From assembly GCA_019912965.1 (NCBI GenBank), contig JAIOHM010000236.1:1-64000 (forward strand): a stretch of DNA of 64,000 bases. Direction: 5' to 3'. Below, piece after piece: positions 12,404 to 27,919 of this stretch (its first letter is position 1; every line of letters begins with the position of its first letter). A program made the translations under genes and the position numbers. The notes beneath the pieces were generated by a model that was given only the letters and a program-made list of their open reading frames with translations, was not told the DNA's origin and searched no databases. Origin of the DNA: Anaerolineae bacterium. Lineage in GTDB: Bacteria; Chloroflexota; Anaerolineae; Aggregatilineales; Phototrophicaceae.

Positions 12404-14674
12404 TTATTCCGTATCAGGATTTCGGGATCGGAAAAGGACTAACGTAATCAAGAGCGATACCAAACTGACCAATACACCCGGCCAGAGCCACCAGGGTTGG
12501 TAACTAAAGCTCACAGTATTGACTGAGGGATTCACTTGTACAGCCCGCATCGCCAGATTAGCTGAATACATATCGTATTGGGAGGCATTACCATCGCTAG
12601 CAGCCCAGCCAGGATAGAAGGTATCTGCCAGTACCAACCAGCCTTCACCCTCCACCTGAAGTTGCACATTCACATTATTGCTCGCATCCTCAAAGGTCAG
12701 AACTTCCCCTACCGCACTTGCTTCTGCGGGCGGCGTTGGACAGTCGCCTTCACCTAATAAATGAACCTGTCGCGCCGGATTCCAGGTTGGTTCAAGTATT
12801 GCTGCAATAAGAGATTCTTTGTCGGAATGCCAGCAAGCTGACTCAACCACCCATGCACGTACACCTCGTTCAAGCTTTTGCAGAGTTCCATCAGTATCAT
12901 AAATGCCAGTTACGCCTGCCGCTTGCAATAAAGTATCCCGTTGATCCGGATTCGCCTCAATCAAATCGACATATTCCGCAAACGAACCCACCAACAGTGG
13001 CTCGAAATTATTCAGCAGTGGAGTACGATCAAGCAAATTGAGATTAGATAATCCACTTTTTCTAAAAGCATCCGCATTATCAACGGCTACTTGATAATCA
13101 TTAAACAGCAGGAAAGTTCCAAATTTGACATCTTCTTCAGCGGCCTCCAGCCAATATGCCCGTTCAACGGCAGTATTTGCAGGTTGAAGCCGATCATAAA
13201 ATGAAGCAGATATTGTTGGATTTAAACCCTGGGCTGCATAAATCAGATCACCCGCCAGCACTACCCAAACTGCTGTTATCCACCATCGATACCGATTGCC
13301 TGTTGGTGCTTCTGGCTGTAGCAAAGTCAATGCACCTGCTAAAGCACCCAGAATTCCAGTGGTTACAACAGCCTGAATGATAACCTGTACACCTTCAATG
13401 CTGGATACATCCGGTGGCAAAAAACGCGGAGCAATCAGTGCTAGTAATGCTGCCCCGATACAGCCTGCTGTTGCCAGACGGGTGCTAAAAAACAGCCAAT
13501 ACCCTCGCCCCCACATCCCAACACCGATGCCAGCCAGTACACTAAGTCCAAACACCGTCCAGATATGCCAGCGGACAGGTGCTTGGAATAAACTAAAAGT
13601 TGGAATATTCCGGTATAGAAACGGGAAAATAGGCGAATCTTTGCCGAGCGCAAAAAGATAGGCAATCATCACGATTAGCAACCAGAAAGGCACATGAGCA
13701 AAATAGATTGGTCGTTCGCTCTGTCGCAGTTTACCCCATACCCATGTGAGCATTGCCACCAGTGCCGAAATCAGCGGAATCAATCCGATATAAACGGCAT
13801 CCTCAAAAAAGGCACCTTCTTCGGTGATGTAGCTGCCATCACCAGGATTGCCAAATACATTGGGCGAAAGCAAATTCAAGGTGCGCGGCAGGCTGTAACT
13901 AAAGTTCATGGCAAAGTCAAAATCCACGCCAGTTGAACGCTGCGACTGTCGTAACAATTCAGCCGTTGGAATTAACTGCGCCGCCGCAATACCCGCCCCC
14001 AACATCAATGCCAGAACAACAAACATTAAACGTCGCCAGTTGAAAGGCCGATGTGTAACGCTCCACCATGCCGAAAACACCCCCACCAACAGCATACTAT
14101 ACCAAGTAGTTTGGGCGTGTCCTGCCAGCAGTTGCAACCCAGCAAATACTGCTAACCATCCCATGTCGCGCCGCTGTTTACGGGTGAGAACGCCCAATGC
14201 TGCCCACAATAACCAGGGCATCCAAGCCGCCGCCGAAATTGTTGGATAAGTCCCCAAACGTGCGACCAAGTACCCGGTCATCCCAAACGCCAGAGCGCTG
14301 ATTCCCCGCCCCAGTTCCGGCAGTCCCAACCGCCCAGTGAATAGCCACATCCCCCATCCTGCGATGAATAGATGCAGTACAGCAGTAACACTCATTTGCC
14401 ATGCTAACGGCAGAATCAAACCCAGCCAATTCAGCGGATACAAAAACGCTGATTGATAATTCGCCAACAGCGGTGCACCCAGCCCATTATATGGATTCCA
14501 TAATGGCAGTTGCCCATTCCGCAGCAAATCAAAACCATACTCACGCCATGGATAAAATTGAAGTGAGGGTAACCCCCAGAAAAAAACTTCGCCTAAAAGC
14601 AGGCGATGGAAAGCAGTCAGTAGCGCTCCAGCCAATACGATCAACGGCAGGCGTGAAGAAAAACGTTCAGGCAT
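12404..14674 (-). CDS. YfhO-like polytopic membrane protein
   Basis: 756 aa; 'PLWNPYNGLGAPLLANYQSAFLYPLNWL' typical of YfhO-like proteins. Confidence 0.8.
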   Translation of the reverse strand: MPERFSSRLPLIVLAGALLTAFHRLLLGEVFFWGLPSLQFYPWREYGFDLLRNGQLPLWNPYNGLGAPLLANYQSAFLYPLNWLGLILPLAWQMSVTAVLHLFIAGWGMWLFTGRLGLPELGRGISALAFGMTGYLVARLGTYPTISAAAWMPWLLWAALGVLTRKQRRDMGWLAVFAGLQLLAGHAQTTWYSMLLVGVFSAWWSVTHRPFNWRRLMFVVLALMLGAGIAAAQLIPTAELLRQSQRSTGVDFDFAMNFSYSLPRTLNLLSPNVFGNPGDGSYITEEGAFFEDAVYIGLIPLISALVAMLTWVWGKLRQSERPIYFAHVPFWLLIVMIAYLFALGKDSPIFPFLYRNIPTFSLFQAPVRWHIWTVFGLSVLAGIGVGMWGRGYWLFFSTRLATAGCIGAALLALIAPRFLPPDVSSIEGVQVIIQAVVTTGILGALAGALTLLQPEAPTGNRYRWWITAVWVVLAGDLIYAAQGLNPTISASFYDRLQPANTAVERAYWLEAAEEDVKFGTFLLFNDYQVAVDNADAFRKSGLSNLNLLDRTPLLNNFEPLLVGSFAEYVDLIEANPDQRDTLLQAAGVTGIYDTDGTLQKLERGVRAWVVESACWHSDKESLIAAILEPTWNPARQVHLLGEGDCPTPPAEASAVGEVLTFEDASNNVNVQLQVEGEGWLVLADTFYPGWAASDGNASQYDMYSANLAMRAVQVNPSVNTVSFSYQPWWLWPGVLVSLVSLLITLVLFRSRNPDTE

Positions 14675-16628
14675 GGGGTTTGAACTTTAAGAAGATAAAT
14701 GCGCCTATACTTATCACCCATGCTACACCAGAAATCAAGTAAGTTAGCATCGTGATTTGGTTAAAATTCTGCACAGTCTCGCGATCTGGCAAACTCGGCC
14801 ACCCAACAGGCCAATCAGGTATGTTGATATTTTCGGTTCTCGACTGATAATCCCTATTCGTGTAGATATACACATCATTAATGTGATCTAGCAATTCTAG
14901 TCGAGAGTGCTCTATCGGATACGCCGCCACTACATGACTGACATGCCATTGCGCCAATACCACCGTATCAATGATGGCATTTTGATTAGCCCGTACCACA
15001 TCTCCATCGCTTCTCACCCCCATCAATGAAGGCAGCACAGGATCATATTTTGTACTTGGAACGCCGCTTCCCTGTTCGACGGCCTTCACAATTCCAGTCA
15101 GTTGAAACGGATCAACCCCGCCAAATAACCGAAGATGATAAACCTCTACGACCTGCTGTTCCAAACTATAAGTTGGGGAATAAATGCGATCCGCTTGTGC
15201 TTCAACCAATCGCTCTGCGAGGGTGCGCTGTCCATCAAGCCAAATTTCTGGCCCACGCCACGTTATCCATTGGTAACCTGTCCAAGCTAAATCAGCAAAC
15301 ACAAGTGCCAGCATGAATACAAAAACTTGCCGAGAATTTATGCGACGGTCAAACGCCAATAGCAAGATGGCGCCTAATACCAAACCAATGACCAGTGTTG
15401 CCAACCCCATCACTACTGGAAGTCGTAGCACTAGCAGCGCAAAAATGCCCATTATCACGGTGATAGCCATCCAAGCCACCACGCCTAACTTAACACGAGG
15501 TACAATAACTAGTGATTGATCTTCAACCCAATTCAACAACCATTGCAGCCCATACCCCGCTAACAAAGGCAAAAGCAGAACCAAAATTAACCATGCTCTG
15601 GCTGGTACACGAAACCATAATAAACCCGGAATCGCTTTCATCAGAGTATTCCACAATAGGCTATTTGTACCCAACGCATATAGAAAAACGCCTACAACCA
15701 CCATCAAAAGCAAAACTTTAAAGCGGTCAGAAATAAAAATGGCCGCCATTCCAAGCGTCAGCACAGGTAGTCCCAGATAAGTCAATGTCTCAATACCAGG
15801 AGGCTGTGAAGGTAAGATCAGGCCAAGCAGGTGAACAGTTTCAAGTGAGAATAAACCAGCATCATTCGAGGTAATGTTGCCTCTGGTGATGTATGATTGC
15901 CACATCACCAGTGGCACTAGCAGCGCCGATGTAAGGACAAACATAATTGGCAGCAATAATGCAAAATACCTTAACTGTCGCCGATTTCCCGGCAGTATAA
16001 AAACAACAATCCCGTAAACTACGCCCGAAACGAAAGCGAATAGACTGACCCGCACATCAGCCAACAGTAGCGATGCCCCAATCAAACCGAGTTGCAAACT
16101 GATCTTAAGCCAGTGTTCCTGCTGAATGACCGACTGACGAATCGCCCACATCAGCCATGGCCACCAAGCTAGTGCATACAGCACATCCAGATGCCCGGCA
16201 CCTACATGCCCGATTAAACGAGGAGCCATTACGTAAGTTACTGTACTTAAAGCAATTGCTTCTGTTCGCAGCCCAAGTGAACGCGCCCACACCCACATGC
16301 CACTGCCAGCCAGAAATAGATGCAGCACAATCAGAATATTCAGATGTAATGATGGCGGAAACAAAAGCGCAAGCCATTGAAGAGGATAAGATGTTTTGTT
16401 TAACGGATTAGCAGCAAAAGGCTGTCCTCCCATAGTAGTTTCCCGCCATACAGGGAACTCTCCACGCTCTAGAACTGATTCTTGCAAGAACAACGCATTC
16501 GGCCAATGAGCGGTCACCGAATCAGAATAACGAGCAGCAGAGCGTAAAAAAGGCACAGCATCAGGTCGCATTCCAGCCAGCAGCAAAAAACCAGCCACCA
16601 ACCCAACCAGTGTTAGTTTAAGGCGCAT
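14667..16628 (-). CDS. YfhO-like polytopic membrane protein (paralogue of the neighbour)
   Basis: 653 aa; 'FPVWRETTMGGQPFAANPLNKTSYPLQWLALLFPP'; overlaps the next gene by 8 bp. Confidence 0.8.
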   Translation of the reverse strand: MRLKLTLVGLVAGFLLLAGMRPDAVPFLRSAARYSDSVTAHWPNALFLQESVLERGEFPVWRETTMGGQPFAANPLNKTSYPLQWLALLFPPSLHLNILIVLHLFLAGSGMWVWARSLGLRTEAIALSTVTYVMAPRLIGHVGAGHLDVLYALAWWPWLMWAIRQSVIQQEHWLKISLQLGLIGASLLLADVRVSLFAFVSGVVYGIVVFILPGNRRQLRYFALLLPIMFVLTSALLVPLVMWQSYITRGNITSNDAGLFSLETVHLLGLILPSQPPGIETLTYLGLPVLTLGMAAIFISDRFKVLLLMVVVGVFLYALGTNSLLWNTLMKAIPGLLWFRVPARAWLILVLLLPLLAGYGLQWLLNWVEDQSLVIVPRVKLGVVAWMAITVIMGIFALLVLRLPVVMGLATLVIGLVLGAILLLAFDRRINSRQVFVFMLALVFADLAWTGYQWITWRGPEIWLDGQRTLAERLVEAQADRIYSPTYSLEQQVVEVYHLRLFGGVDPFQLTGIVKAVEQGSGVPSTKYDPVLPSLMGVRSDGDVVRANQNAIIDTVVLAQWHVSHVVAAYPIEHSRLELLDHINDVYIYTNRDYQSRTENINIPDWPVGWPSLPDRETVQNFNQITMLTYLISGVAWVISIGAFIFLKFKPHA

Positions 16629-18219
16629 AGACCACTACACTGCCATAGCGGAAAACAGGAGTTAGTGAATCAAGGCAGTTTGTGTGCCCCAATAATTCCT
16701 CCTGTGGGCCAAGAATAATATAATCCACGTGATAATCATCCAGCAATTCAATGCATTCTGCTGCCGATTCACCCGCATACCAACGCTCCATAGCAGCCCT
16801 TTTTACGTTGGCATCCAGCGTTTCATACGGATGACCATAAACCACTCGTGTACCAACCCAACCCGGAATCCACACACTAACTTCCTCAGAAGCCAGAAGC
16901 ACATCATCAGATTGTGTACGTGTGCGGAGCCACTGAAAAGCAACCGCATAATCCCGATTTAAAAATGGCCCAACAGACACATTCAGATTCAGCACCAGCA
17001 ACACTACATAACTTGCCACCATCAATGGGACTATCAAAATCAGCAGACGATAACGCCAGCGTCGATTAATATACTGGAACCAGAAACCCTCTAGGGCACG
17101 TGCAGCAAAATAGGCTATAGGGATCATCATCCCAGCCGCGAAACGACGTTGAACATTCGTCGGGAAATAGATTGCGACCACAATAACAACTAACCACAAC
17201 AGCATAAAACGATCGCCATCCTGATCAAACTGGCGAATCGACCGCACAATACCAGGTACAGCCATTGCAAGTGGAACACCCAATCCTAACATCATCACCA
17301 ATAAGGATGGCGATGGTGTTAAATTCTGCTGATTCCATTCCCCAACGACCGGGTTATAGGTAACAATCGCGGCATAATACACCGCGATGGGCAATGCAGG
17401 TAGAACAATTACCAGTAACCATCGCATCTCACGCATTTTGAATTCACGCTGATGCAACCAGTAACCCAATACATAAAGCGCAATCGCGAACCCAAAAGGC
17501 AATAATGCCTGAGGATACAATAAAGCCAACACAAAACTGAGTAAACCACCAATCAACCCACCATTGTTCACATTAGGATCATCATTCACACCCGGTCGAA
17601 ATGCAGAAATGCAGACACTCGCAAGCAATGCTAAGCAGGCTAAAGTCAATGGAAAATGGACATTTACAAGGCTGCTGTAAAAAGGAAAAATTTCGGGAAT
17701 TGTAAGATCAGGGAAAGCATTATCACCTGTCAGGGGCCAAAACAACCAACCTAAACCCGAACCAATGGATGCAATCGTAAAAAAAATACGCCGCGCACGA
17801 ATTTTCTGGGTATGAGGCCAGATTGTCGCCGCCAGATGATAGAGCGCCATATACATAATGAGCGAAGCAACCACCCGTGCTACATGAAACAATGCAATAG
17901 GTGGTATGCCAGTTACACTGGCGAGATGACCTAGTGCGGGATAAATGACCTGAATAAGCACACCTGGATGCGGCTCAGATGTGTGCCAGAAGTGGATCAA
18001 CCAAGAGCCTTCCGCACCCTGCGCCATCTTCGATAGATAAGTCGCGCCATCGCGATAGTTGTTTAGCACACCCATGAACTGCCATTGATCACCCGCGACG
18101 CCGCTGAAAGCGACCCAAAGAAAGGGCGAAAAAGCCAGCAAGACCAATGTGCTCCCAAATAAAACCACCCAACGCCATTCCGCTGGAGTAATATGTACTG
18201 CATCGCGTGATGATTGCAT
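16618..18219 (-). CDS. Polytopic membrane protein, paralogue of the 632-2257 product
   Basis: 533 aa; shares 'HTSEPHPG...FHVARV...NVQRRFAAGM' pattern with the 541 aa protein. Confidence 0.8.
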   Translation of the reverse strand: MQSSRDAVHITPAEWRWVVLFGSTLVLLAFSPFLWVAFSGVAGDQWQFMGVLNNYRDGATYLSKMAQGAEGSWLIHFWHTSEPHPGVLIQVIYPALGHLASVTGIPPIALFHVARVVASLIMYMALYHLAATIWPHTQKIRARRIFFTIASIGSGLGWLFWPLTGDNAFPDLTIPEIFPFYSSLVNVHFPLTLACLALLASVCISAFRPGVNDDPNVNNGGLIGGLLSFVLALLYPQALLPFGFAIALYVLGYWLHQREFKMREMRWLLVIVLPALPIAVYYAAIVTYNPVVGEWNQQNLTPSPSLLVMMLGLGVPLAMAVPGIVRSIRQFDQDGDRFMLLWLVVIVVAIYFPTNVQRRFAAGMMIPIAYFAARALEGFWFQYINRRWRYRLLILIVPLMVASYVVLLVLNLNVSVGPFLNRDYAVAFQWLRTRTQSDDVLLASEEVSVWIPGWVGTRVVYGHPYETLDANVKRAAMERWYAGESAAECIELLDDYHVDYIILGPQEELLGHTNCLDSLTPVFRYGSVVVYAP

Positions 18220-18375: not shown

Positions 18376-19083
18376 ATGACACAAGTTGAAGCCCTTTATC
18401 ACCTTCAAGAAATTGACCTGAATTTACTCCAGCGACAAAAACGCTTGAGTGAGATTGCCGCCGCGCTATCCAACAATCAAATTATCCTTGATACTCAACG
18501 CCAGGTTACAGTCGCGGAAAACAAATTAACACCCCAGCAAAGAAAAGTTCGGCAGTTGGAACAGGAAATTCAGTCTAATACCCAGAAAGTCCAACTGACG
18601 GACGAGCAACTTTATAGTGGACGAGTACGCAATCCCAAAGAACTTCAGGATATGCAAAACGAAATTAAATCCTTGAAAAAGCGTAACACCGAACTGGAAG
18701 ATGTTCTGCTGGAAACCATGATGGCAGTTGAGGAAGCCGAAATAGAATTGGCAGATGCTCAAAAACTATTGCAGACTGTTCAGACGTCTTGGGAACAAGA
18801 TCATGCCCAGTTATTGAGCGAACAGGATACGATTAAAGCGGAAATAACCGGATTACAACAAAAACGTCAACAAGCCCTGCCAGCCGTAACCACAGAAAAT
18901 TTGAAAATTTACAACACCCTCCGCCCACGCAAAAACAATCAGCCGATTGCCCTACTGATAAACCAAAGCTGCTCAGTTTGTCGTGTGGAACAGGATATGA
19001 CCATTATTGGAGATGCACGCAAAGGACAAAAATTAACGCATTGTTCAAGCTGCGGACGTATACTATTGTATAGGGGTGGATAA
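18376..19083 (+). CDS. Coiled-coil protein with C-terminal C4 zinc ribbon (COG1579-like)
   Basis: 235 aa; long coiled coil, then CSVC...CSSC zinc ribbon. Confidence 0.85.
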   Translation: MTQVEALYHLQEIDLNLLQRQKRLSEIAAALSNNQIILDTQRQVTVAENKLTPQQRKVRQLEQEIQSNTQKVQLTDEQLYSGRVRNPKELQDMQNEIKSLKKRNTELEDVLLETMMAVEEAEIELADAQKLLQTVQTSWEQDHAQLLSEQDTIKAEITGLQQKRQQALPAVTTENLKIYNTLRPRKNNQPIALLINQSCSVCRVEQDMTIIGDARKGQKLTHCSSCGRILLYRGG

Positions 19084-19100
19084 AAGCGGAGGGTGGAAAC

Positions 19101-21755
19101 GTGGGTTTTGACGTTGAAAACTTCGGTATTGGTTTACTGACGGGTTGGGCAACTGCTTATGGAGTGTACCGTGTTCGCCATCTCATTAGCTCGGTCGTTC
19201 AATCAGCGTCCCAGCAAGCCAGCAGTGCACAAAATTATGCCACCCAGACTGCCGACAAACGTTATATCAATGATGTTGTGCAAATGGCGCAAACCAGCCA
19301 CTTGGCCGGAGGTTTCACCCAACTTAGTGAAATTTTGGTGGAACCGCGCTTCCTTCCTGCACAAACCTTAGCTGCGCCGCCCGATGATGATGTAATTCGC
19401 AGTGTGTTTCATGTTGTCCCTAACATTTCTGATTACCCTTATTTGGGAGCACCTTACAACCTCGAAACACTCTCAATTGATGATCTGAGCACGGGTGACC
19501 GTGCCCTAGCCTTGCTAGGTAATCCGGGCAGTGGCCGCACGACAGCACTGATGTCAATTCTGTTGCGGGCATTAGGACACGTCGAATTTAACCTCCCAGT
19601 TGACAAAGTACAGCAGCGTATTGATGCCGAAGAAGCTAAACTTGATGATAAACAACGAGCAGTCCGCATCAAAGAACGCTTGGCGATTGAGCAACGGGCT
19701 AAAGAACGCTTGGCGGAAGAACGCGGTCAATCATTTGACACAGATGCTGACGATAAAGCAGGTCTTCATCTCTTCAACCGTTTGATGCCCGTTTATGTCC
19801 ATCTAGCAGACATCAATGTGCGCGATCCCGAATTTTCGAACGAAGTTGATCCAGCTGAGCCTCTGGTACGAGCCGTCCAACGGCAGATGGGACGCGTAGC
19901 GGCAAGCGCACTTCCACGCAATCTTTACCTGCGTTTAAGTCGCGGACAGGTGCTTCTGCTGGTTGATGGCTACGACGATTTACCGGAAAATGAACGTTCT
20001 CGCCAATTGAATTGGTTAGCATCGCTCATGGATGCCTACACCTACAATTTCTTTATTGTCGCAGGGCCTTCCACCGGTTATGGCAACTTGACCAGTCGGT
20101 TGGGGCTAACCCCGATCTTTCTGCGCTCATGGACTGATCAGGATATGGAAAGAGCCGCCGAACGATGGGCTTCAATCTGGCCTGAACTTGCCAGATCACG
20201 CCGCAGTGCTGCTTCCAAGCCTGACGGTGAAACTATTCAACGCGCAAAAACCAATACTCGAGCAACCTCACCATTTGATTTGACGCTCAAAATCTGGGCA
20301 AATTATGCTAATGATACCGAAGCGGCTGGTTTTGAAGGGTGGATACGCGCTTATTTAGCCCGACATCTTCCATCAGGTCAATCACTGGATTTAATCCTGC
20401 CACAAGTCGCACAGGCGGCAGCCCTTCAACTGGATGAGGGCTACATCACGCAGGCTAAATTAACCGAATTGGTGACAGGCAAAATCGCGCCAGAGGCATC
20501 AGCTACAGAGTCCGACGCCAAAACGAAAAAAGTCAAAAAAGAAGCAGCAGAGGATACTAATGCACAAGCCAAATTGCTGGCAATGCTTCAAAAAAGCAGT
20601 TTACTCGTCAACTATACGGGCGGACGTTATCAGTTTAGGCATTTTTTTCTTGCAGCCTATCTTGCCAGTCTTACACTCAAAGATGCCACAACGGAACAAC
20701 TGAGCAACAAATCACTTCTCCCAGCATGGAATCAAGCATTAGCCTATGCAAATCTACACCGTCCAATGGACGAGGTAGTACGTGCCCGGCTGAATATGCC
20801 ACCGGATATGCTCTACCAGAATGCATTGGAGATTGCCAATTGGTTACCATACACTAGTCTTGATACCGCTTGGCGCGGCACATATCTCAAACAATTAGGA
20901 ACAATGTTAGTCGCACCCAGCCAGTACCCATTGCTACGTGAGCGTGCAACCGCAGCACTGGTTGGAACACGTGACAAAAGTGTACTAACACTGTTTCGAC
21001 AAGCTACCCGCAGCCCTAATCCCCATCTTCGTCGTTTGGCATGTTTAGGACTCGGTGCATTTGGGGAACCTGAAGTGGTGAGTGATCTTGTACCACTGCT
21101 CAACGATCAGGATGGCGATGTTCAACTCTCAGCCGCTTTGGGATTGGGCGCAGTCCGAACGGAAGAAGCCCTGACTGCACTGGTTGAAGCCTTTACCGAG
21201 GGTTCGGAACAACTACGGCAGGCCGTCGCCGAAACCTTTGCCGATATTCCTGCTGAAGGCTATCCAGTGCTCTACGATGCCATTCACGATGAGGAGATGA
21301 TGCTTCGTCGGGCGGCTGTATTCGGTCTACGTCGCGTCAAATCTGGTTGGGCGCTCATTTCCATTTATCGTGCCTTCCTGGAAGATGAGCAGTGGTACGT
21401 GCGGTCAGCCGCCCAAATGGCTTTTCAGGAGCTTCAATACGGTAAAGATAATGGGCCACATGGCTATCCCCCACCAGAATCGATCCCTTGGCTAACAGAT
21501 TGGGCAGCCAAACGGGGTGAAAACGTCCCGCCGGGTGAAGGAGCAATCCAAATCCTGATGCGCGCGTTGCAGGAAGGTGAACCCTCAATCCGTCTGTATG
21601 CAGCCGCTAATCTGGGGCAGCTTGGTATGGCTTCAACTGCGCGGTCACTTTATACAGCCTTGCGGGACAAACAAGCTGATGTTCGCGAAGCAGCACATCG
21701 CGCGTTGGCTGAGTTGCAAATGCAAATTGGGGAATCGCTGCCCGCGCCTAATTAA
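19101..21755 (+). CDS. Membrane-anchored NACHT-type STAND NTPase with C-terminal HEAT repeats
   Basis: 884 aa, GTG start; N-terminal hydrophobic segment, Walker A GNPGSGRTT, Walker B VLLLVDGYDDL, NACHT-terminal 'YQFRHFFLAAYLAS', then HEAT repeats. Confidence 0.85.
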   Translation: MGFDVENFGIGLLTGWATAYGVYRVRHLISSVVQSASQQASSAQNYATQTADKRYINDVVQMAQTSHLAGGFTQLSEILVEPRFLPAQTLAAPPDDDVIRSVFHVVPNISDYPYLGAPYNLETLSIDDLSTGDRALALLGNPGSGRTTALMSILLRALGHVEFNLPVDKVQQRIDAEEAKLDDKQRAVRIKERLAIEQRAKERLAEERGQSFDTDADDKAGLHLFNRLMPVYVHLADINVRDPEFSNEVDPAEPLVRAVQRQMGRVAASALPRNLYLRLSRGQVLLLVDGYDDLPENERSRQLNWLASLMDAYTYNFFIVAGPSTGYGNLTSRLGLTPIFLRSWTDQDMERAAERWASIWPELARSRRSAASKPDGETIQRAKTNTRATSPFDLTLKIWANYANDTEAAGFEGWIRAYLARHLPSGQSLDLILPQVAQAAALQLDEGYITQAKLTELVTGKIAPEASATESDAKTKKVKKEAAEDTNAQAKLLAMLQKSSLLVNYTGGRYQFRHFFLAAYLASLTLKDATTEQLSNKSLLPAWNQALAYANLHRPMDEVVRARLNMPPDMLYQNALEIANWLPYTSLDTAWRGTYLKQLGTMLVAPSQYPLLRERATAALVGTRDKSVLTLFRQATRSPNPHLRRLACLGLGAFGEPEVVSDLVPLLNDQDGDVQLSAALGLGAVRTEEALTALVEAFTEGSEQLRQAVAETFADIPAEGYPVLYDAIHDEEMMLRRAAVFGLRRVKSGWALISIYRAFLEDEQWYVRSAAQMAFQELQYGKDNGPHGYPPPESIPWLTDWAAKRGENVPPGEGAIQILMRALQEGEPSIRLYAAANLGQLGMASTARSLYTALRDKQADVREAAHRALAELQMQIGESLPAPN

Positions 21756-24703: not shown

Positions 24704-24786
24704 CAGGTCATTCATAACAGTAGATAGTCACGTTTCCCCATGCTGATTAAGTCATGCATGGGTGTCCAAAATTGCGAGGATTCTCG

Positions 24787-25515
24787 ATGAGTGATCGTGA
24801 TGAACATCGCCCTCCGGGCAGCATTTCGGTGCTAATCGTAGACGACCACCCCTTATTCCGCGATGGGTTGCACCAGGCACTCATGCTGGAAGATGATATT
24901 CGCGTGGTTGGGCAAAGCGAAGATGGTGAAGAGGGGTTACGGTCAGCACGCCGCTTGCAACCGGATGTGGTTCTCCTCGACATCAATATGCCCCACATGA
25001 ATGGGTTACAAGTCGCTCGACAACTGAAAGCCGAACGCTCTAATATCGCTATCATCGTACTGACAGCATACCACGATGCTGCCCAGGTACTTCATGCAAT
25101 GCGTGCAGGTGCATCCGCTTATTGTTCTAAAGACATTACGCCAGATGATCTCGTAGACATCATCCGCGATGTTGCACGAGGACAATATGTGGTTGGTAAC
25201 GAGCGTATGGATGAACGAACTCTGGAAACCTGGATGCAATCCAGTATCGAAGCGATGAGCGGCCCCTATATTATTGATGCTGAAGAACACTTTATTCCCC
25301 TAAGTCCGCGCGAAATGGAAATTTTGCAATTCGTGACTAATGGTCTGAGCAACAAAGAAATTGCGGTAAAACTGCGCATCAGCCAACAGACGGTCAAAAA
25401 CCATATGACCTCTATCCTTAAAAAGCTGAATGTAGAAGACCGAACACAGGCTGCTGTAAATGCACTACGCCGAGGCTGGGTGCGTCTCCAAGATAACTCC
25501 AACAATAATCCCTAG
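24787..25515 (+). CDS. NarL/LuxR-family response regulator
   Basis: REC domain (IVDDHPLFRDGL, VVLLDINMPHMNG) and LuxR HTH ('LSPREMEILQFVTNGLSNKEIAVKLRISQQTVKNHMTSILKKL'); start at MSDRDEHRPP. Confidence 0.95.
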   Translation: MSDRDEHRPPGSISVLIVDDHPLFRDGLHQALMLEDDIRVVGQSEDGEEGLRSARRLQPDVVLLDINMPHMNGLQVARQLKAERSNIAIIVLTAYHDAAQVLHAMRAGASAYCSKDITPDDLVDIIRDVARGQYVVGNERMDERTLETWMQSSIEAMSGPYIIDAEEHFIPLSPREMEILQFVTNGLSNKEIAVKLRISQQTVKNHMTSILKKLNVEDRTQAAVNALRRGWVRLQDNSNNNP

Positions 25516-25527
25516 AGTGTGTAAAGT

Positions 25528-26604
25528 ATGGACAGAGATATTGCCGATCCAAAAGAAGAACTGATCGAAACGCTCACCCAGGAAATGAAGCGTATCAAAG
25601 ACAAATTGGTGGAGATTAAAGGGCAAATCGATCAAACCCAGCTCGTGGTAGATCGTGAACAACAGCGAAATGCCGATATTGCCACAGAACTACGCACCAT
25701 TCAGGATAATATCGATACGATTCCGCGTCAGGATATCCGCTCGAAATATGACGAGGCCATTGATGCTCGTTTCCGCCTGACAACCATGCGTGGTCAACTT
25801 GAGAAGTTTCAAGCCAATCGGGAACAGCTAGAACGTGAACAAACCATGCTCTCGCAAATGCTTAATAAACTTCAAGGGGTGACAACCCTCTCTTCAGGTG
25901 AAGAAACCCCCACAACAACAGCGCAAAAAGGTGCAGTCAATATCGTGCGTATCGTTCAGGCTCAGGAAGAAGAAAAACTTCGATTGGCACGCCTGATGCA
26001 CGATGGCCCAGCACAATCGCTCACTAATTTCATTCTTCAAACTGAGATATGTCAACGCCTTTTCGACCGTGATCCGGCACGTGCTGCTGAAGAACTCAAT
26101 AATCTGAAAACGAACGCCAGCGTCACATTCCAAAAAGTGCGAGATTTCATCTTCGATTTGCGCCCAATGATGCTGGATGATCTAGGGGTAGTGCCTACCG
26201 TGCGCCGCTATGTAGACTCATTCCGTGACAAAAACGATATCGACACCAAACTTGAATTGCTAGGTGAAGAACGCCGACTGGAAAGCCACCGCGAAGTGAT
26301 GCTTTTCCGGGGTGTTCAGGAACTCATGGGACATTCCCGTGATTATGCGAGTTCCAACGAACTCTTGGTGCGTCTGGATATGTCCAACGACCGAATTAAG
26401 GTTGATGTAGAAGACAACGGACGTGGTTTTGATGCTGAAGCCGCTTTCACAGGAGACGAAACACATCTTGAACCCCGTGCTCAGGGACTGTTGACTCTCA
26501 AAGAAAAATTCGAACTCGTCGGTGGATCGTTATCGGTATCCAGCAGCGAAACTGATGGCACTCATGTTCACATCGAATTACCCTCCAGCGACGAGTCGTT
26601 TTAG
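25528..26604 (+). CDS. DegS-like sensor histidine kinase (HisKA_3)
   Basis: 358 aa; coiled-coil N-terminus, 'RLARLMHDGPAQSLTNFI' H-box, 'DFIFDLRPMMLDDLGVVPTVRRY', 'VEDNGRGFD'. Confidence 0.9.
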   Translation: MDRDIADPKEELIETLTQEMKRIKDKLVEIKGQIDQTQLVVDREQQRNADIATELRTIQDNIDTIPRQDIRSKYDEAIDARFRLTTMRGQLEKFQANREQLEREQTMLSQMLNKLQGVTTLSSGEETPTTTAQKGAVNIVRIVQAQEEEKLRLARLMHDGPAQSLTNFILQTEICQRLFDRDPARAAEELNNLKTNASVTFQKVRDFIFDLRPMMLDDLGVVPTVRRYVDSFRDKNDIDTKLELLGEERRLESHREVMLFRGVQELMGHSRDYASSNELLVRLDMSNDRIKVDVEDNGRGFDAEAAFTGDETHLEPRAQGLLTLKEKFELVGGSLSVSSSETDGTHVHIELPSSDESF

Positions 26605-26677: not shown

Positions 26678-26776
26678 AGGTTAATGTCTGTGTTTCACTT
26701 GCTTATCCTGCTTCATTTGCGAGAGGCTATTTCCGCCTCCCAGATGAGATACACTTAAGCCTTGAGGGAGGGACTC

Positions 26777-27919
26777 ATGCGCGGTCGCCTGCTCATTCTG
26801 GTCGGATTAATTCTTCTGCTTGGCGTGATCGTTGTGGTCGTGTTAAGCAGCGGGATTTTGAATCGTACACCAGCACCGCCATCTAATGGCACACCTGGAG
26901 TACAGGTTGCCCAAGCAACAGTAGGGCCAACACCAACGCCCTATCCTTTCGTGCGAATAGTCATCGCGCTTCAGAACCTGCCGCGCGGCTATCGCTTCCC
27001 ATCAAACATTGAAGAACTTCAGGACATTGTGGATTATACCCTCTGGCCTGAACCAGCCGTACCTTTCAACGCTCTCCGGGAAGACCAGGGTGGAGTGGAA
27101 GCAGTGCTCGGCAAGATTGCCCGCACGGATATTTTCCGTGAGCAGCCGATTCTCTCCACATTACTTGTCGAAAACCTGACGGAAATCGCCGCCATTGGTT
27201 CAGACGCTGCTGCTATCCTGCCGAGTGATCGGGTAGCTGTATCCATTCCGGTTGACCGTGTGACCAGTGTGGCCTACGGTGTTCAGGATGGCGACCGAGT
27301 AGACGTAATTATCTCCATGCTGTTCGTAGATGTGGATGAAGTATTCCAATCCATTACCCCGAACAACGTAACACTTTTCACCATTAAAGAAAACGGTGAT
27401 ATTGAGCTATTAGAAGCTATTCAGGGTCGTCCTGATCAGACTGCCTTCGGCTCGGCCATCATTGGCCCCTCTGAGCGTCAGCGTCCGCGTTTGGTGACGC
27501 AGCGCACCGTCCAAGATGCGCTTGTAGTGCATGTGGGTGACTTCCCACCAGACGGCAAATTTATTGGCAAGAAACCAACACCAACACCGGTTCCGCAGGG
27601 TACACCAGAAACGGGTCGTGGCACACCTCCGCCGCCCCCCACCGCGGTTCCGCGTCCTGACATTATCACGCTGGGTGTAACGCCGCAGTATGCCGTGATG
27701 CTTGTATGGGCGATTGAAGCCAAGCTGCCATTGACACTCGCACTCCGTTCGGCCACTGATGTGTCACAGCAGACTACTCTGCCTGTCTCACTGGACTATA
27801 TCCTAAACGAGTTTAACATCTCTGTGCCCGGACGCCGTGACTACAGCATTGAACCGGCCATCCGCAGCATCCGCCAACTGTTGGCGGGAGCGGAAATCAG
27901 CCTGAACCCAGGATCATAA
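26777..27919 (+). CDS. cpaB: SAF-domain Flp pilus assembly protein CpaB
   Basis: N-terminal TM, SAF-like 'LPRGYRFPSNIEELQDIV', 'VAVSIPVDRVTSVAYGVQDGDRVDVIISM'; first gene of Tad-type operon. Confidence 0.85.
   Translation: MRGRLLILVGLILLLGVIVVVVLSSGILNRTPAPPSNGTPGVQVAQATVGPTPTPYPFVRIVIALQNLPRGYRFPSNIEELQDIVDYTLWPEPAVPFNALREDQGGVEAVLGKIARTDIFREQPILSTLLVENLTEIAAIGSDAAAILPSDRVAVSIPVDRVTSVAYGVQDGDRVDVIISMLFVDVDEVFQSITPNNVTLFTIKENGDIELLEAIQGRPDQTAFGSAIIGPSERQRPRLVTQRTVQDALVVHVGDFPPDGKFIGKKPTPTPVPQGTPETGRGTPPPPPTAVPRPDIITLGVTPQYAVMLVWAIEAKLPLTLALRSATDVSQQTTLPVSLDYILNEFNISVPGRRDYSIEPAIRSIRQLLAGAEISLNPGS

Follow-up and report, generated by a model that had tools for sequence, protein, structure and literature searches.

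Two adjacent genes on the forward strand, here called Z and N, are described from the window, the 64,000-nt stretch of Anaerolineae DNA that was analysed. A preliminary description had reported two open reading frames separated by 17 nt, and both frames and the gap were confirmed from the ORF list and by reading the sequence. Z starts with ATG and comprises 235 amino acids, and N starts with GTG. The features of the pair are the following:

18376-19083, +: Z, COG1579/CT398-type protein with coiled-coil hairpin (aa 10-186) and C4 zinc ribbon (PF24481, 2.7e-19; profile matches)
18970-19053, +: C4 zinc ribbon of Z (C199xxC202...C223xxC226), all four cysteines invariant in 39 homologues
19088-19096, +: Shine-Dalgarno-like GGAGGGTGG in the 17-nt Z-N gap, just before the GTG (sequence read)
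19101-21755, +: N, 884-aa protein with predicted NACHT (NLR) fold and HEAT repeats (ORF; structure model; Foldseek matches to NOD2/NLRP)
19101-19295, +: N-terminal helix of N (helix in the model), putative membrane anchor (aa ~5-25) and stalk (to aa 65)
19518-19544, +: Walker A of N, GNPGSGRTT, with Arg146 (CGC, 19536-19538) in place of lysine (R in 58/96, K in 36/96)
19605-19721, +: charged helical insert of N between Walker A and the next strand (aa 169-207; helices in the model)
19953-19979, +: Walker B of N, LLLVDGYDD (D289; residue 293 is E or D in 87/97, from the alignment)
20052-20090, +: sensor-1 region of N, canonical TSR replaced (IVAGPSTGYG); no TSR/TCR-type motif in 96/96
20634-20675, +: winged-helix motif of N, F512-x-H514...AAYLA (H514 in 86/97)
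20916-21752, +: C-terminal HEAT superhelix of N (PF13646, 1.7e-33; highest mean pairwise identity of all domains, 0.395)

The zinc-ribbon protein and its known relatives

Z combines a coiled-coil hairpin with a C4 ribbon, the combination that characterizes the COG1579/CT398-FlgZ family, and its earlier reading as a COG1579-type protein was borne out. The CT398-like hairpin (PF24481) was clearly matched in Pfam, and the ribbon (PF02591) scored 25 bits against a cut-off of 29.1. In profile searches, three solved members of the family were matched with E values of 1e-10 to 1e-24, namely MSMEG_4306 (5y05, 3.2e-24), CT398 (4ilo) and HP0958 (3na7). Known associates of the family are RpoN, FliH/CdsL and NIF3 (PMC3372290, PMC6426960, PMC8469502), of which RpoN and NIF3 are the best known (PMC3372290, PMC8469502); CT398 binds CdsL and FliH, which regulate the type III secretion ATPase (PMC6426960). 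Z differs from these relatives in that its partner gene encodes a NACHT protein. An association with RpoN or NIF3 is common, if not universal, in the family; family searches found neither in the genome that carries the window, and both were therefore rejected as partners of Z.

Fold and nucleotide site of N

The NACHT model of Pfam (PF05729) gave N 18.1 bits, below the curated cut-off of 26.7, and N was still assigned to NACHT because structure was considered to outweigh the sequence threshold. A confident model (pLDDT 91.3, pTM 0.90), built with 66 orthologues, was matched by Foldseek to ADP-bound NOD2, NLRP2 and NLRP3, besides designed HEAT-like proteins. A second model, of a distant orthologue with an eroded P-loop, was matched to the NACHT parts of NOD2, NLRC4 and NLRP3, and the sequence profile of N reaches NLRC4 with an E value of 2e-4. 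The nucleotide-binding domain (NBD), the helical domains and the winged helix expected of a NACHT protein are thus recognized in both models and by the NLRC4 profile. Hence, N is, by structure prediction, an NLR-fold protein in which a HEAT superhelix takes the place of the LRR superhelix. The preliminary description had called it a NACHT-type NTPase with a charged coiled-coil insert after Walker A, a NACHT-like FRHFFLAAYLA segment, a C-terminal HEAT array and no obvious effector. The NACHT assignment holds for the fold and fails at the Pfam threshold; the HEAT_2 match and the insert (helices 167-177 and 181-205 of the model) agree with the description, the FRHFFLAAYLA segment corresponds to the winged-helix FxH motif with its histidine H514, and no effector domain was found in N with Pfam. 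In the order NBD, winged helix and superhelical repeat, and in the winged-helix histidine, N resembles the NACHT-type NLRs (NOD2, NLRC4, NLRP3) and bNACHT, and NOD2, NLRP3 and NLRC4 are its best structural matches outside designed HEAT proteins. It differs from them in having HEAT rather than LRR repeats and no effector domain.

The N-terminus was modelled as a long helix, for which a hydrophobic anchor had been proposed. In 57 of 97 orthologues the segment reaches a KD mean of 1.6, and in 87 of 97 the positive charge is higher behind the helix than in front of it, so that its first part looks like a membrane anchor in most of the family. The proposal fits the window's own N less well, as the segment there is weakly hydrophobic (best 19-residue KD mean 0.81), likewise in its genus; this protein may still lie at the membrane.

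The P-loop departs from the GxxGxGK[ST] pattern by Arg146. The earlier reading quoted the motif correctly, but it passed over the arginine at the catalytic position, and the Walker A K/R mutants that it suggested overlook that arginine is the wild-type residue. Among 96 orthologues, position 146 is R in 58, K in 36, T in one and L in one. The arginine codons are CGN in 55 of the 58 R-type orthologues, two steps from the AAR lysine codons, which indicates that the arginine is old and maintained. About five K/R changes are needed on the tree of the 96 sequences; the base of the family could be either K or R, and both states persist. A pseudogene or a sequencing error at Walker A was ruled out by the occurrence of arginine in 58 genomes, the intact ORFs and the CGN codons. 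A genome-wide habit of arginine in NACHT P-loops was also rejected, since all 27 distinct control proteins keep the lysine. These other NACHT proteins come from 28 loci, one of them sampled twice, in the same genome and in further ones of the class, and most of them also keep TSR/TCR and LDGLDE.

The sensor-1 arginine, in a T[ST]R motif, was found in none of the 96 N orthologues. The rest of the site is better preserved. Walker B has its aspartate followed by an acidic pair (VDGYDD), and D289 is present in 97 of 97 orthologues. G145, S/T147 and D289 are invariant, S/T147 and D289 being the Mg-binding residues; together with H514 in 86 of 97 orthologues, this is the pattern expected if Mg-nucleotide is still bound. 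In both replaced residues the family departs from NACHT-type NLRs and bNACHT, the sensor-1 arginine being missing throughout and Walker A arginine occurring in most members.

In NLRP3, R351G at sensor 1 lowers hydrolysis about 2.5-fold and K232A about 3-fold, both with impaired signalling, and H522 matters too; in NLRC4, sensor 1 is Thr (PMC9633759). A literature search on natural Walker A arginines found no direct precedent. The fungal Kti12 K14L is comparable as a natural, lineage-wide replacement of the P-loop lysine, which is still active at high ATP (PMC7363723), but it belongs to a P-loop family unrelated to N and carries leucine, not arginine.

In one family clade (f134; L135-L141, L153) both ATP motifs erode further, to GPRAAGRT and VDNWES, with part of Walker B (VDNWE) and one Walker A glycine lost. 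Judging from these motifs, it looks as if catalysis were wholly dispensable there.

Descent of N and conservation of the gene pair

N is single-copy in its own genome, where the remaining matches are HEAT or canonical NACHT proteins, and one full-length orthologue per genome was found in the cases checked. It is present in 56 of 61 near relatives and patchy across Anaerolineae, with full-length or near-full-length matches in about 67 of 298 sampled genomes, a number counted by hand from 125 reported matches that include canonical NACHT proteins. Searches of plasmid and phage collections gave no match. In a tree of 96 N sequences each bacterial family forms one clade, with 17 changes, which is the minimum, against a shuffled mean of 62.5; from this, vertical descent with losses was concluded. 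N is an old, vertically inherited gene of Anaerolineae. One candidate orthologue from another class (L114) was removed, as it clusters among canonical NACHT proteins and carries both K and TSR. The HEAT part is the best-conserved domain, its identity exceeding that of the NBD (mean pairwise 0.327).

In 73 of 96 loci, which represent 14 of 18 family groups, Z is the gene immediately upstream of N and shares its strand; the median gap is about 15 nt, and of 70 gaps measured, 65 are 60 nt or shorter. The neighbourhood survey that had been suggested thus found the pair kept together, in support of the proposed co-expression. The other neighbours change from lineage to lineage. In the order of the source organism the pair is flanked by genes for divergent GT-C-type membrane proteins and by YggT-YggS-PgeF genes. 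Family f9 has a VanW-like gene upstream of the pair and F420-related genes downstream of it, and several f134 members have a response regulator upstream. The names VanW-like, GT-C, YggT and F420 are readings of the sequence rather than results of profile searches. This leaves Z as the one neighbour of N that stays constant.

The pairing has exceptions. In 23 of 96 loci N has no adjacent Z, and some of those genomes have no Z at all; conversely, near relatives lacking N still have Z, and some of these loci have Z immediately before the genes that come after N elsewhere. It could be argued from this that the adjacency is conserved gene order and that the two proteins act separately. This is improbable, given that the adjacency, with its short gap, is kept through 14 families and none of the other neighbours is.

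Possible role of the pair and its surroundings

The reading that we favour, with about even confidence, is that N is a membrane-tethered, nucleotide-binding, slow or locked NLR-fold switch or scaffold for an endogenous ligand, with Z as its partner. The N-terminal helix would tether N to the membrane, and bound Mg-nucleotide would hold NACHT core and HEAT superhelix together as a conformational clamp. Hydrolysis would be weakened by the absence of the sensor-1 arginine from every member and by the Walker A arginine in most, leaving a slow or nucleotide-locked device with its endogenous ligand on the conserved HEAT surface. The strong conservation of the HEAT part is the opposite of what would be expected of an arms-race sensor, and the repeats probably read a conserved cellular ligand. 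CT398 and FlgZ dock on proteins that regulate membrane-associated secretion ATPases, and by this analogy Z, presumably co-transcribed with N, could serve as its working partner or adaptor. Contact between the two proteins and a housekeeping role of N would belong to this scheme. Against it count the loci where either gene occurs without the other and the weak anchor in the genus.

The nearest alternative is that N works as a fully active STAND ATPase switch in envelope or stress signalling, with Arg146 substituting for lysine and the loss of the sensor-1 arginine being tolerated. Replacing the lysine by arginine need not abolish activity, which also counts against the favoured slow or locked device: Kti12 K14L is still active, NLRC4 has a threonine at sensor 1, and 36 of 96 orthologues keep the lysine. 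The few K/R changes, with both states persisting, and the acidic residue 293 in most orthologues point the same way. The loss of the sensor-1 arginine in all members and the eroded motifs of the f134 clade, which suggest relaxed catalysis, make full activity unlikely on balance.

An antiphage role, considered in the preliminary description but not supported here, would make N a bNACHT/Avs-like defence protein with HEAT repeats as the sensor. Defence proteins of the NACHT type with a C-terminal sensor are known (PMC12169576), and N has weak PADLOC matches to HEAT models; these matches cover almost only the HEAT repeats. An effector, a mobile or patchy island location and a match to a defence model, by which bNACHT/Avs proteins are recognized, were not found for N beyond these weak HEAT matches. 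The collections of phages and plasmids that were searched do not contain it. It is inherited vertically in single copy and its presumed sensor is its most conserved part, and in both respects it differs from NACHT-type NLRs and bNACHT. In the flanks of the pair PADLOC gave no specific match, only generic ones to the response regulator and kinase. A defence island was excluded on the vertical tree, the lack of phage or plasmid matches and the flanks, in agreement with the housekeeping-like surroundings noted earlier. Vertical inheritance, the lack of an effector and the unspecific flanks make a defence role very improbable.

A more specific version of the favoured reading, held tentatively and somewhat short of even confidence, is that N is a non-immune bacterial NLR, a nucleotide-locked membrane scaffold with a COG1579 zinc-ribbon protein as adaptor. 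Its vertically inherited family would be defined by loss of the sensor-1 arginine and recurrent Lys-to-Arg change in Walker A. The bacterial NACHT/NLR proteins described in the cited literature are immune sensors. If the reading is true, the NLR architecture would be shown to serve ordinary cell biology too, in the form of a protein inherited vertically in single copy, whose ATP site is degenerate and whose operon partner is fixed. The K-type and R-type members would offer a natural series of ATP sites for probing the role of hydrolysis in NLRs, and COG1579, a widespread family, would gain a concrete new partner.

The genome itself carries a large NACHT repertoire: besides N there are 29 PF05729 matches, of which 21 exceed the cut-off; many lie in frames of 800-1500 aa, and all those whose Walker A was read keep the lysine. 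Three successive large membrane proteins are encoded at 12404-18219 (-), divergent from Z. The last of them (16618-18219, -), with a weak Dpy19 match in Pfam, lies next to Z in divergent orientation in most of the order, and genes of its type hold the same place in families f12, f112 and f138. In one relative without N (L167), the same divergent membrane protein lies upstream of Z, and the next ORF downstream on the strand of Z has 385 aa and matches nothing in the window. Further downstream in the window, genes for a LuxR-type response regulator (24754-25515) and a DegS-like histidine kinase (25528-26604) precede one for a Flp-pilus RcpC/CpaB protein (26762-27919, Pfam), and many relatives keep these genes in synteny with Z and N.
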